Assembly: GCF_001592285.1 (NCBI RefSeq)
Contig: NZ_BCWQ01000001.1
Coordinates: forward strand, 496,001-560,000
Direction of reading: 5' to 3'
Origin: Hydrogenophaga pseudoflava NBRC 102511
GTDB taxonomy: Bacteria > Pseudomonadota > Gammaproteobacteria > Burkholderiales > Burkholderiaceae_C
Length of the DNA stretch: 64,000 nt
The number at the start of each line of letters is the position of its first letter. Position 1 is the first letter of the stretch. Below, in pieces: positions 6,718 through 30,409 of this stretch. Both the position numbers and the translations under genes were made by a program. The notes beneath the pieces were generated by a model, which ran no database searches, was not told the DNA's origin, and worked only from the letters and a program-made list of their open reading frames with translations.

Positions 6718-7548
6718 TTACTTCACAGCGCCGAACGTGAGGCCCTGGACGAGCTGCTTCTGGCTGAACCAGCCGAAGACCACGATGGGGGCAATCGCCA
6801 TGAGCGAGGCGGCGGACAGCTTGGCCCAGAACAGGCCTTCGGGGCTGGAGTAGCTGGCGATCAGCGTGGCCAGCGTGCCGGCCTTGGCCGAGCTGAGGTT
6901 GAGCGACCAGAAGGCCTCGTTCCAGCTCAGCACCAGGCACAGCAGGCCGGTGGAGGCCAGGCCGCCCATGCCCAGCGGCAGCAGCACCTTGGTGGCCTCC
7001 TGCCAGAGGGTGGCGCCGTCCATGCGCGCGGCCTCCAGGATCTCGTGCGGGATCTCCTTGAACGAGGAGTACAGCATCCAGACCATGATCGGCAGGTTGG
7101 ACAGCGTGAACACGATGATCAGGCCCAGCTGCGTGTCCAGCAGCTGGCTCTTCTGCGCCATCACGTAGATCGGCACCAGGGCGCCCACCGCCGGCATCAT
7201 CTTGGTGGAGAGCATCCACATCAGGATGTCCTTGTCGCGCTTGCCCTTGTGGAAGGCCATCGCGTAGGCCGCGGGCGCGGCAATCGCCAGGCCCAGCAGG
7301 GTGGATACCACGCTGGTGACCACCGAGTTCCAGGCGTAGTGCAGGTAGTCGCTGCGTTCCTGCACCTCGTGGAAGTTTTCCAGTGTGGGCGAGAAGAACA
7401 GCTCGGGCGGCACCGCGATGGCCTGCAGCTCGGTCTTGAACGCTGTCAGCAGCAGCCAGCCCAGCGGGAAGAACAGCAGCAGGGCCACGGCCCAGGCGGC
7501 CACGGTGCGCACCGCGTAGGCGGGGGTGAAGGTGGATTGACGTGCCAT
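6718..7548 (-). CDS. Carbohydrate ABC transporter permease (SmoG/MtlG-like)
   Basis: Inner-membrane permease of 276 residues with about six hydrophobic segments, starting with one near residues 15-35. The EAA loop that docks the ATPase is seen as EAARMDGATLWQEATKVLLPL. Members of this family are the shorter MalG-like partner in polyol and sugar importers. It starts ten bases after the stop of the other permease, as expected for subunits made in equal amounts. Confidence 0.92.
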   Translation of the reverse strand: MARQSTFTPAYAVRTVAAWAVALLLFFPLGWLLLTAFKTELQAIAVPPELFFSPTLENFHEVQERSDYLHYAWNSVVTSVVSTLLGLAIAAPAAYAMAFHKGKRDKDILMWMLSTKMMPAVGALVPIYVMAQKSQLLDTQLGLIIVFTLSNLPIMVWMLYSSFKEIPHEILEAARMDGATLWQEATKVLLPLGMGGLASTGLLCLVLSWNEAFWSLNLSSAKAGTLATLIASYSSPEGLFWAKLSAASLMAIAPIVVFGWFSQKQLVQGLTFGAVK

Positions 7549-7558
7549 GGGATGGGCC

Positions 7559-27213: not shown

Positions 27214-28380
27214 TCAGCGCAGCCGGACCGGCACCCGGCGCCAGCCGCCCAGGGGATAGGTCTCGCGCTCGGGCGAGGCACCGGGCGCGGGATCGATGAG
27301 CGCCGTGGCCTTCAACAGTGCCTCCACGGCGACGACCAGTTCCATCGTCGCCAGCGGTCGCCCTGGGCACGCGTGGATGCCGGTGCCATAGACGAGGTTG
27401 TGTGGCGCGTTCTGCTCGGGCCGGTAGGCGCCGGGATCGCCGAAGACGGCCTCGTCCCGGTTGGCCGAGGTCCAGTTGAGGTACACGCGGTCGCCGGCGG
27501 CGAGTTCATGTTCCCCGATGCGCACGGCACGCGTCGTCACGCGCCGGTTGACGAGGAAGGGGTCGTCGATGCGCAGCATCTCGTCGATCGCCAGCGCAAG
27601 GTCCTGGGGGCGGTCCCGCAACGCCTGCTGCACGTCCTGGTGGGTGGCGAGGAACCAGACGACGACACCCAGGGCCGCCGCCATCGACGCGAGATCACCC
27701 GCCGTCCAGTTGCGCAGGATGGAGACGATGTCCGCTTCGCTCAAGGGCTGCCCGTCGAGCGTTGCGGTCAGCAGTGCGGTGGTCGGATCGTCGGAGGTGG
27801 CCTGGTCCGGCGTGCGGCGCCTGCGCAGTTGCCTGCGGATGATCTCGTCGAACGCCGCGGCAACGGCGGCGCTGCGCGCGGTGTCGCCGCTGCGCGTGGC
27901 GGCGTGGTTCTCGGCCATCCAGGCAAGCAGTTCGTCCTCGATTCCCTGCCACCCCAGCCAGGCCGTCTGCGCCCGAACGGCGAACGGTCGGCCGATCTCG
28001 GCGACCGCGTCGACCACGGTGCCGCGCGGCAGCGCTGCCACGAGGGCATCGGCAATCGCGCGCACGCGGGGCTCCAGCGCGGCGATCTGCGCAGGGGCGA
28101 AGAAGCTGTCGACCAGTGCCCGCCAGGGGGCGTGTTCGGGCGGATCCATGCCGTTCGGGACTGCGCGCCGCGCCGACACGGCCGACGAGAAGGTCTGCGG
28201 GTCGTGTGCCGCCGCGACGACGTCGGCATGCCGGAACAGCGTGACGCCGCGGGGCGACCGGGCCAGCGCACAGGCGATGCGCTGGCGGTCGTAGGTGCCC
28301 AGCTGGTCGGCAAGCACCTCGGGTGACAAAGGCTCCCAGGCCGGGATCGCGGCTTGCGGATCATCAACGCGCCGGTTCAT
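27214..28380 (-). CDS. Cytochrome P450 without the usual acid-alcohol pair
   Basis: Soluble bacterial P450 of 388 residues. The haem loop is YGTGIHACPG with the thiolate Cys at 338 (Tyr replaces the usual first Phe), and the ExxR pair is Glu267 and Arg270 in DEMLR. In the I helix the motif reads TAGDLASMAAALGVV: the positions normally taken by Asp/Glu and Thr (230-231) are Leu and Ala, so classical oxygen activation is doubtful. P450 nitric oxide reductases and peroxygenases also depart from that motif. The ATG at 28380 fits the family start; the open frame continues to 28518 but overlaps an NsrR-like operator and is not protein-like. A hemerythrin-like gene lies upstream on the same strand. 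Substrate and redox partner are unknown. Confidence 0.88.
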   Translation of the reverse strand: MNRRVDDPQAAIPAWEPLSPEVLADQLGTYDRQRIACALARSPRGVTLFRHADVVAAAHDPQTFSSAVSARRAVPNGMDPPEHAPWRALVDSFFAPAQIAALEPRVRAIADALVAALPRGTVVDAVAEIGRPFAVRAQTAWLGWQGIEDELLAWMAENHAATRSGDTARSAAVAAAFDEIIRRQLRRRRTPDQATSDDPTTALLTATLDGQPLSEADIVSILRNWTAGDLASMAAALGVVVWFLATHQDVQQALRDRPQDLALAIDEMLRIDDPFLVNRRVTTRAVRIGEHELAAGDRVYLNWTSANRDEAVFGDPGAYRPEQNAPHNLVYGTGIHACPGRPLATMELVVAVEALLKATALIDPAPGASPERETYPLGGWRRVPVRLR

Positions 28381-28509
28381 GGCGAAAGCGCTTGGCGACG
28401 CCTCGGGCGTCGAAGGGGGAGATGGCTGACGGTGACAGGTGAAGATGGGGTTGCGACATCGCGGGATCCTGGGGTCGGGAGAAGGTGGGGAGGTCGGTGT
28501 ATCGTGTTT

Positions 28510-28532
28510 AAGATGCATTTGTTATGCATCTA
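28510..28532 (-). promoter_or_regulatory. NsrR-type operator upstream of the P450
   Basis: AAGATGCATTT, one base, TTATGCATCTA: a near-perfect inverted repeat that closely matches the NsrR consensus of gamma- and betaproteobacteria. It lies 130-152 bases before the P450 start. On the minus strand a TTGTCG and a weak AT-rich -10 just upstream of and overlapping the palindrome could be the promoter, so a bound repressor would block it. The site overlaps the stop codon of the hemerythrin-like gene. NsrR is the nitric-oxide-sensing repressor; its gene is not in the window. Confidence 0.7.
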
Positions 28533-29147
28533 TGTTATCGGTCCTCGAACGACAAGGCAATGAAGACCCGTGGCCAGCTCACTCGACCCATCCGGAGCAC
28601 GCCCAACATGAGGCCCGTCGCGCCGCTGGCGCATCGCCTTGCCGATCTCGGCCAGTGCATCGTCCCCGAGGAGCCGCGAGGCCATCGGAAGCAGTTCGGC
28701 CTCCTCACGCGCGATGTGCCGCTCGTACATGCAGATGAACGGCTCGACGTCCGTGGGGTCCAAACTCACCGAGTCGCCCGCCGCGATGGCGTGCAGCACC
28801 TCACGCAGGCGCTGCCACCGGAAATCCAGCGCTCGATGTTCGAGCGTCAACGAATCGATCAGCTCACGGATGCAGATCGCATCCGAGCCGGCCATCGACT
28901 CGATCAGGGCCGGAAACAGGTCCGTCTCCTCGTCGGCGTGGTGGTCCCTGGTTGCGGTATCGAAGCAGCGCATCACCGCTGCTGCGGCAGCACGTGCGTC
29001 TTCGTCCGGATCGCGGTCGAGCAGATGCGCCACCAGTCGCCGCAACGTGGCGCACTGCCGCTCGACGCGGCGATGGCAGCCCGAAAGCACCTCCAGCGGC
29101 GCCTCGAATCCTGAGGCCGCCGCATGGCCGGAGATCGTCATCGACAT
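28530..29147 (-). CDS. Hemerythrin-like (HHE) domain protein
   Basis: Four-helix di-iron protein of about 205 residues. The metal-ligand pattern is present: His in SGCHRRVE, HxxxE in DHHADEETDLFP, His in LEHRALDF, and HxxxE in ERHIAREEAELLP. HHE proteins act in oxygen, nitric oxide or iron-cluster stress. The ATG at 29147 is preferred over 29153 because GGAGG then lies eight bases upstream. The C-terminal 35 residues (after AMRQRR) look unlike the family and may be a drifted tail. It is between a Yip1-like gene and the P450, all on one strand. Confidence 0.85.
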   Translation of the reverse strand: MSMTISGHAAASGFEAPLEVLSGCHRRVERQCATLRRLVAHLLDRDPDEDARAAAAAVMRCFDTATRDHHADEETDLFPALIESMAGSDAICIRELIDSLTLEHRALDFRWQRLREVLHAIAAGDSVSLDPTDVEPFICMYERHIAREEAELLPMASRLLGDDALAEIGKAMRQRRDGPHVGRAPDGSSELATGLHCLVVRGPIT

Positions 29148-29337
29148 GGGCATCGCCTCCTGGCTATGCGTTGTGCCTGGCGGGGGAACGGCGGCGTGTG
29201 ACGGGTGCGCTGATCGGAGCCATCGCCCTGGAGCGCCGCGCACTTGATGCGGCTGAGGCAGCGGCGCACGCCGGTCAGGCTGACGAAGCCGTGAGGGCAG
29301 GGCTGGTGCAGGGCCTTTTGCATCGATTCGACGTGGG

Positions 29338-29895
29338 TCAGCTCAGCATGGTCAGCGCGACGGCCAGACACCCCCAGGCGGCGAGCCCCGCGCCGGCCGC
29401 GACCTGCACGACGGCCGCAGCCACGAAGGCCTCGCGGGGGCGGCACATGGCCACGAGCCCGTGGTACGCGATGCCGCAGCTCAACCCGAGACCGGTCAGC
29501 AACACCGCCGCAGGCGCTGCCATGCCGGGCAGCGCAAAGCCCGCCGCAGAACCCCACAGCGGCAGCGGCGCCAGCGCGGCGAGCAGGCGCGCCTCGTGCG
29601 GCCCGAGAACCATTGCGTACGCGCCTGCGATGTGACGGAACAGCTGGCCGGCCACCGCCACCGAGGCGAACTCCGCCAGCAGGACCAGCAGCGACAGTTC
29701 ACCCCAGGGATGGCTGCCATCCCTGATGTCGGAAGGGCCGACCGTGCCGGCCAGATAGAGGACCACAGGTGGCAGCAACGCGACGGGCAGCACGATCTGC
29801 AGGAACAGGCGCCACCCGGCGGGGCGGGTGCGCAGCAGTTCGGGCCAGCCGCGCTCTGCGGAAAGCGGCAGGGCCGCCAGGGTGTAGAGATTCAT
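29338..29895 (-). CDS. Yip1-family-like membrane protein
   Basis: Integral membrane protein of 185 residues with about five hydrophobic segments (near 30-50, 68-88, 103-125, 128-150, 158-183). The layout and the words WRLFLQIVLPVALLPPVV and AGAYAMVLGP resemble bacterial Yip1 domain proteins. No catalytic motif is visible. It is divergent from a MarR regulator and is followed, 190 bases later, by the hemerythrin-like gene. Function unknown. Confidence 0.7.
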   Translation of the reverse strand: MNLYTLAALPLSAERGWPELLRTRPAGWRLFLQIVLPVALLPPVVLYLAGTVGPSDIRDGSHPWGELSLLVLLAEFASVAVAGQLFRHIAGAYAMVLGPHEARLLAALAPLPLWGSAAGFALPGMAAPAAVLLTGLGLSCGIAYHGLVAMCRPREAFVAAAVVQVAAGAGLAAWGCLAVALTMLS

Positions 29896-29944
29896 CGCGC
29901 CGACTGTGAAAATCGCTTGACTATTCTTACAATAATATCACGAC
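29896..29944. promoter_or_regulatory. AT-rich divergent promoter/operator region
   Basis: The gap between the Yip1-like and MarR genes is markedly AT-rich from 29908 on. It holds TTGACT at 29917 and an imperfect palindrome TATT-CTTAC-AATA at 29922-29934, which would suit a MarR dimer. No convincing -10 box is paired with the TTGACT. Confidence 0.4.
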
Positions 29945-30409
29945 ATGATACAAAAGCGCATGCCTTCAAGACCGCCCAAGACACCGCCGGCCAGCTCGTC
30001 GAGAGCGCTGGACAAGAGCGACTTCGAGCGCCTGTCGGACTTCCGGCACCGGCTTCGTCAGTTCCTGCGCGCCAGCGAGCTCACCTGCCGCACGCATGGG
30101 CTCACGGCGCTGCAGTACCAGTTGTTGCTGCACGTGGCCGGCTTCCCGGGCCGGTCGTGGGCCACGATCGGGGAACTCGCCGAGCGCTTGCAGGCCCAGC
30201 ACCATGGCGTCGTGGCGCTGGTGGATCGCTGTGCGGCCCTGGGTTGGCTGGCGCGCCGCCCCGGTCGGGAGGATGGCCGTGTGGTCGAGATACACCTGCT
30301 GCCAAAGGGCGAGCGACTGCTGGCCAGGGTGGCGAGCCTGCACCGTGACGAACTGCACACGCTGCTCGGCGAGTTCTCGGCCGCAGTGCCGGATCGTCGT
30401 GCGCCGTGA
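29945..30409 (+). CDS. MarR family transcriptional regulator
   Basis: Winged-helix regulator of 154 residues (149 if the second ATG at 29960 is used). The DNA-binding part is seen in TIGELAERLQAQHHGVVALVDRCAALGWL, and the wing in GREDGRVVEIHLLPKGE. Neither start has a clear ribosome site. It is divergent from the Yip1-like gene and probably controls it and perhaps the hemerythrin-like gene. Confidence 0.87.
   Translation: MIQKRMPSRPPKTPPASSSRALDKSDFERLSDFRHRLRQFLRASELTCRTHGLTALQYQLLLHVAGFPGRSWATIGELAERLQAQHHGVVALVDRCAALGWLARRPGREDGRVVEIHLLPKGERLLARVASLHRDELHTLLGEFSAAVPDRRAP

Follow-up and report, generated by a model that had tools for sequence, protein, structure and literature searches.

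The 64,000-nucleotide stretch of Hydrogenophaga pseudoflava NBRC 102511 analysed here (the window; positions 496,001 to 560,000 of contig NZ_BCWQ01000001.1) encodes a cytochrome P450 whose clade probably belongs to nitrogen-oxide metabolism. Genes of nitrate, nitrite and nitric oxide (NO) metabolism lie near family members in three phyla, and the P450 co-occurs with the nitrite reductase NirK. This family context is a stronger argument than the NsrR-type box that precedes the window gene. The simplest role for the P450 would be to dispose of NO in the service of nitrate, nitrite and NO modules, and we give that role an even chance. Reduction of NO to nitrous oxide (N2O) is our leading guess for the chemistry, and a tentative one. 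An initial annotation of the window had proposed that the P450 reduces or detoxifies NO, as the fungal enzyme P450nor does. The link to NO metabolism is supported by family neighbours and NirK co-occurrence, whereas the arguments drawn from the window itself are weaker and the protein is not a P450nor.

27214..28380, minus strand: cytochrome P450 gene, 388 amino acids, Pfam p450 (PF00067), uncharacterised clade

Judged by its sequence, the gene product is a soluble P450 in a distinct, uncharacterised bacterial clade. The 120 homologues listed of 2619 share 69-95% identity with it, apart from one identical entry. Most are about 381 amino acids long and the identical entry has 388; thus the coding sequence probably starts near 28380, and not at 28518 as initially annotated. 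Cys338 and the ExxR pair (E267 and R270), already noted as kept in the window protein, are invariant in all 44 aligned sequences, the window's among them. The AlphaFold2 model of the protein (mean predicted local distance difference test score, pLDDT, 93.7) contains no helix in residues 58-83, so the B' helix appears to be absent. Plasmids yield nine records for this P450 at E <= 1e-60, all below 60% identity.

We scanned 8 kb on each side of the P450 at 82 loci (80 kept of 164 relatives in genome contigs, plus the window and locus L002) with local profiles for NarGHJI, NirK, NorB, NnrS, DUF2249, hemerythrin and cytochrome P460. Such nitrogen-oxide genes occur at 16 of the 82 loci, the window included, versus five of 80 control windows (p = 0.018). 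When loci with NarG/NarH only are excluded, a choice made after seeing the data, the counts become 15/82 versus 3/80 (p = 0.005). The control windows were 17 kb each, taken at round positions on long contigs of hand-picked P450-bearing genomes; the P450 loci average about 14 kb. Three phyla, Proteobacteria, Acidobacteria and Actinobacteria, include loci with neighbours of the nar, nirK, nor, nnrS, DUF2249 and HHE types. On the P450 tree of all 82 scanned loci, 13 changes are required to account for the 16 positive ones, and thus the linkage was gained or lost many times. A search for shared neighbours by clustering brought out mainly lineage-specific synteny, as in Marinobacter.

Individual loci illustrate the range of these arrangements. 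In an Acidobacteriaceae locus (L011) a NarK-like transporter, NirK (308.7 bits, above the NCBIfam cut-off), the P450 and a molybdopterin reductase follow one another in order. NnrS and DUF2249 lie near the P450 in L015, cytochrome P460 in L005 and qNorB in L024, and the Nocardioides locus L032 has a respiratory NarG above its cut-off. Locus L237, from the same genome as L032, and L236, from the same family, share the order NirK-like, NnrS-like, HHE, NarK, NarG, NarH, NarJ, NarI, CBS-like and P450, with the NnrS-like membrane protein and the CBS-like protein assigned by eye; the HHE protein of L236 is an HHE-DUF2249 fusion, checked against Pfam. L235, also of this family, has the P450, a SLAC1 channel, a NirK-like protein and HHE-DUF2249 in that order. 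Further loci with nitrogen-oxide neighbours are L033, L034, L045, L075 and L079. Electron-transfer genes do not recur beside the P450 at these loci, the single cases being an FMN reductase (L006) and Fe-S/Rieske-like proteins (L013).

Co-occurrence across whole genomes points the same way. We sampled 245 genomes from the family of the L032 genome (two draws whose listed handles agree, taken as one), presumably Nocardioidaceae since L032 is a Nocardioides, with thresholds of E <= 1e-70 for the P450 and E <= 1e-60 for NirK-like proteins. The P450 is present in 13 genomes, a NirK-like protein in 35 and both in 10. That is, NirK accompanies the P450 in 10/13 genomes and is found in 25/232 genomes that lack it (Fisher p = 2.2e-7, uncorrected for kinship and genome size). 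A second survey covered 49 P450-bearing genomes chosen by hand from the 82 loci, with NirK at E <= 1e-30 and NorB at E <= 1e-6. NirK was found in 24 of the 49, and half of these (12/24) have no NorB match. Among the Actinomycetota of this survey NirK reaches the threshold in 19 of 20 genomes, with L006 at 7e-19. The 12 genomes with NirK and without a NorB match include those of L032, L033, L034 and L045, whose P450 genes are located inside or close to nar or nirK clusters.

The I helix distinguishes the clade. Its signature is RN-x-T-x-G-[DE]-[LIV]-[AGSN]-[ST], in which an acidic residue (D/E) and an alcohol residue (S/T) stand three residues apart in all 106 P450s taken from loci and in all 120 listed homologues. 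The adjacent acid-alcohol pair typical of a classical P450 monooxygenase is not found, while the heme Cys and ExxR are. The initial annotation had taken the pair to be missing; both residues are present in the [DE]-x-x-[ST] spacing in every sequence checked. The pair has thus changed its spacing without disappearing, which is a hallmark of the family rather than a loss. It had also placed Leu-Ala where Asp/Glu-Thr is standard. That holds only if the alignment is anchored on Ala-Gly, which puts Leu-Ala at the position of Ala242-Thr243 of P450nor. BLASTP and hhalign, in contrast, both set the window's Ala231-Ser232 opposite Ala242-Thr243, free of gaps, and the argument from Leu-Ala thus depends on a doubtful register.

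By convention, members of one P450 family share about 40% identity or more. Membership of CYP55, the P450nor family, is ruled out for the window protein: identity is 27% over 308 residues, Ser286 of P450nor lies opposite a gap in the hhalign alignment and the model lacks a B' helix. P450nor is also absent from the best 60 PDB matches of the window P450. In the gap-free alignments, though not in one anchored on Ala-Gly, the window protein resembles fungal P450nor (CYP55A1) in having Ala at the acid position of the I helix and an alcohol right after it; it differs by a further conserved acid, which precedes the alcohol by three residues. In P450nor, Ser286 and Thr243 are assigned a role in the NADH/hydride network (PMC4030948), and a title cited in the same paper ties the B' helix to NADH/NADPH use. 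Since the window P450 is not a P450nor, any reduction of NO would need another electron route. Fungal P450nor is likewise a soluble P450 found with NirK, and it is viewed as being of bacterial origin (PMC7412212). For an ammonia-oxidising archaeon, too, a P450 NO reductase has been suggested, without biochemical proof (PMC6775971). Our literature search, which covered few subscription papers, found no description of this clade, nor of any P450 that bacteria encode within nirK or nar clusters or keep under NsrR control. One of the nearest folds of known structure is that of P450eryF (CYP107A1; 26% identity to the window P450), an enzyme of macrolide biosynthesis that also departs from the standard I-helix Thr.

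The candidate regulatory signal in front of the window gene is the following element.

28510..28532, palindromic: NsrR-type box AAGATGCATTTGTTATGCATCTA, its core identical to the published gATGyAT-N5-ATrCATc

The NsrR binding-site consensus is printed in this form in PMC1274295. The palindrome, initially described as close to the NsrR consensus, is real: besides the exact core, it has three mismatches to the long consensus AAGATGYATTTNAAATRCATCTT, and no match arose in 100 dinucleotide shuffles. The P450 start lies about 130 nucleotides downstream of it. Across 60 genomes (the window's own and 59 relatives) the exact core occurs once, at this box, and the control pattern not at all. The window's own genome has two sites within three mismatches of the long consensus, AAGATGCATTTGTTATGCATCTA included, and again none for the control pattern. 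It also encodes an Rrf2 regulator that among NCBIfam models fits NsrR best (120 bits, under the cut-off of 182) and whose gene adjoins NnrS and DUF2249 genes; an HHE-like frame was seen, by eye only, beside this NsrR/NnrS pair. The other of the two sites in this genome, the NsrR-like palindrome AAGATTCATATGATATGCATCTT (L084:1501-1523; G000:C2:394620-394642), stands directly before a SufB gene, and control of Fe-S cluster assembly by NO through this sequence is possible.

Outside the window, L003 also has the exact core ahead of its P450; the 14 fixed bases are the same there and three of the five spacer bases differ. Of the 82 loci, these two have a box within three mismatches; both boxes are exact, and the number of loci expected when three mismatches are allowed is 2.7. 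Among the loci whose identity is 82% or lower, none carries a match to the long NsrR consensus (up to six mismatches) within 1 kb of the P450, and box conservation was therefore dropped as a main argument. Boxes of the FNR/DNR type are not enriched upstream of the P450 (one locus versus 0.75 expected).

L003 is the closest relative of the window locus (P450 94% identical) and comes from a metagenome-assembled genome, HGW-Betaproteobacteria-9. Comparison of the two loci brings out a gene fragment between the box and the P450 that is absent from the initial annotation.

28364..28459, minus strand: DUF2249 gene remnant, a 31-codon frame overlapping the P450 start, recognised by DNA alignment with L003 and by translation

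28530..29153, minus strand: hemerythrin HHE-domain protein of 207 amino acids, upstream of the box (PF01814, 61 bits)

In the window the 5' end of the DUF2249 gene is intact and most of the gene is deleted. The L003 copy is intact (85 amino acids, PF10006) and stops six nucleotides short of the P450. The order there is HHE, box, DUF2249, P450 and SLAC1 channel, with the box at the head of a DUF2249-P450 unit; the HHE gene (6910-7550) is split over two frames by a frameshift or an assembly error. We take COG4309 to be equivalent to DUF2249. COG4309 is a predicted gene of the NsrR regulon that is often co-transcribed with norB (PMC1274295). These beta-proteobacterial operons, which are predicted to be under NsrR, resemble L003 in layout: the box is followed by DUF2249 and one further gene in a single unit. 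That further gene is norB in them, whereas in L003 it is the P450, and in the window DUF2249 is a remnant. The HHE protein, correctly placed beside the P450 by the initial annotation, is a weak match to RIC/YtfE, with 28.8 bits where the equivalog cut-off is 204.7. Taken with the arrangements in L235 and L236, that of L003 shows HHE, DUF2249 and SLAC1 as repeated companions of the P450 across two phyla. The hemerythrin-DUF2249 fusions themselves (L236:7180-7980 and L235:4165-4962) lie in denitrification islands beside NirK-like genes and the P450.

Other neighbours deserve mention. Ahead of the HHE and P450 genes, at 29338-30409 of the window, are encoded a probable membrane protein, for which Pfam gives no match, and a divergent MarR regulator, an arrangement kept in L003. 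In two distant family members the P450 is closely preceded by a carbonic anhydrase gene (Pfam Pro_CA; L010:7390-7884 and L079:7124-7747). A radical SAM/SPASM protein lies near the P450 in an Acidobacterium (L013:12486-13634), and the Deinococcus plasmid NZ_CP021083.1 (H2) has a radical SAM/SPASM protein under the P450 match, for which TIGR04053 is named. Proteins of the nitronate monooxygenase family (PF03060) are encoded near the P450 at L013:9233-10660 and L015:6493-7926; the nearest NCBIfam model for the latter is FabK, below its cut-off.

How NO might be handled is best considered together with other functions for the P450. NsrR would repress the gene through the box at 28510-28532, and NO, by damaging the NsrR cluster, would release it from repression. 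The ferric haem of the P450 would then bind NO, which would be disposed of in the cytosol, our leading guess being reduction to N2O, with electrons from a donor that is not recognised near the P450. Alternatively, the protein could be a conventional monooxygenase (or peroxygenase) with an organic substrate, which in some few lineages is regulated along with NO stress and has no other relation to NO. This is unlikely in view of the NirK co-occurrence and of the linkage to nar/nirK islands, which is seen repeatedly and in three phyla. The B' helix is a usual substrate-recognition element of P450s, and its absence from the modelled stretch of residues 58-83 also speaks against a conventional organic substrate.

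Two further possibilities would keep the P450 within NO biology. The bacterial P450 TxtE, a 4-nitrotryptophan synthase, uses NO and O2 in its reaction, and TxtE-type P450s are among the weak NCBIfam matches of the window protein (51.8 bits, cut-off 500). A haem that uses NO and O2 to nitrate or oxidise a substrate, or an NO dioxygenase that makes nitrate, would suit the NO modules, the NsrR box and the nitronate monooxygenase family proteins near the P450 in L015 and L013. We consider such an NO-using oxygenase improbable, since the respiratory nitrate reductase beside the P450 in several hosts is expected to run without oxygen. The P450 might also sense or buffer NO, or assist the module, without turning NO over, for instance as a partner to HHE and DUF2249 proteins. 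Such a role would account for the recurrence of both beside the P450 (separate in L003, fused in L235 and L236) and for the lack of a recurrent electron-transfer gene. The strict retention of ExxR, Cys and [DE]xx[ST] instead suggests catalysis, and a P450 fold for pure sensing would be unusual; we regard this role as very unlikely.

Several observations weigh against disposal of NO as the role of the clade. None of the scanned nitrogen-oxide genes lies within 8 kb of the P450 at 66 of the 82 loci, including L004, whose P450 is 82% identical to that of the window. The contrast with the control windows is biased upwards, because the seeds of the hidden Markov models came mostly from P450 loci. 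The actinobacterial NirK-like proteins of L045 and L235 score below the NirK cut-off, though both keep the HSxDxH motif as in L011 (a comparison that rests on these three loci, since the frames of L075, L034, L236 and L237 were picked by that motif). NirK is missing from three (G915, G935 and G1036) of the 13 P450-bearing genomes sampled in the L032 family. The window's own genome carries a cNorB and yields no NirK match, and L024 has the P450, NirK and qNorB together. Twelve of the 16 loci with nitrogen-oxide neighbours, the window's among them, sit in genomes with a NorB match and four in genomes without one, so the P450 could stand in for NorB in part of the family at most. The features of the window that first suggested an NO role are narrowly distributed: the box is kept in the closest relative, L003, and absent from the other 80 loci examined, and an HHE gene of the window type adjoins the P450 at just five of the 82 loci, window included. 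Finally, the mechanism of P450nor cannot simply be carried over to this protein, because the B' helix and Ser286, both linked to NADH, are missing.

A broader proposal is that the clade forms a second, independent line of P450 NO reductases, one that arose in bacteria outside CYP55, with a re-spaced acid and alcohol, an electron donor other than NADH bound in the P450nor manner, and a role as stand-in for NorB in nor-less, NirK-bearing Actinobacteria and elsewhere. We put this forward as a speculation that, taken as a whole, is rather doubtful.

The P450 clade accompanies NirK as well as nitrate reductase, and it is present in Actinobacteria that have no NorB match. A survey reported that 35% of nirK-bearing organisms have no canonical nor (PMC4250227). 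For the handling of the NO that such organisms make, this clade offers a concrete candidate for expression and assay. If these enzymes make N2O, they would be a bacterial source of this greenhouse gas that is overlooked by surveys counting cnorB, qnorB and fungal P450nor.
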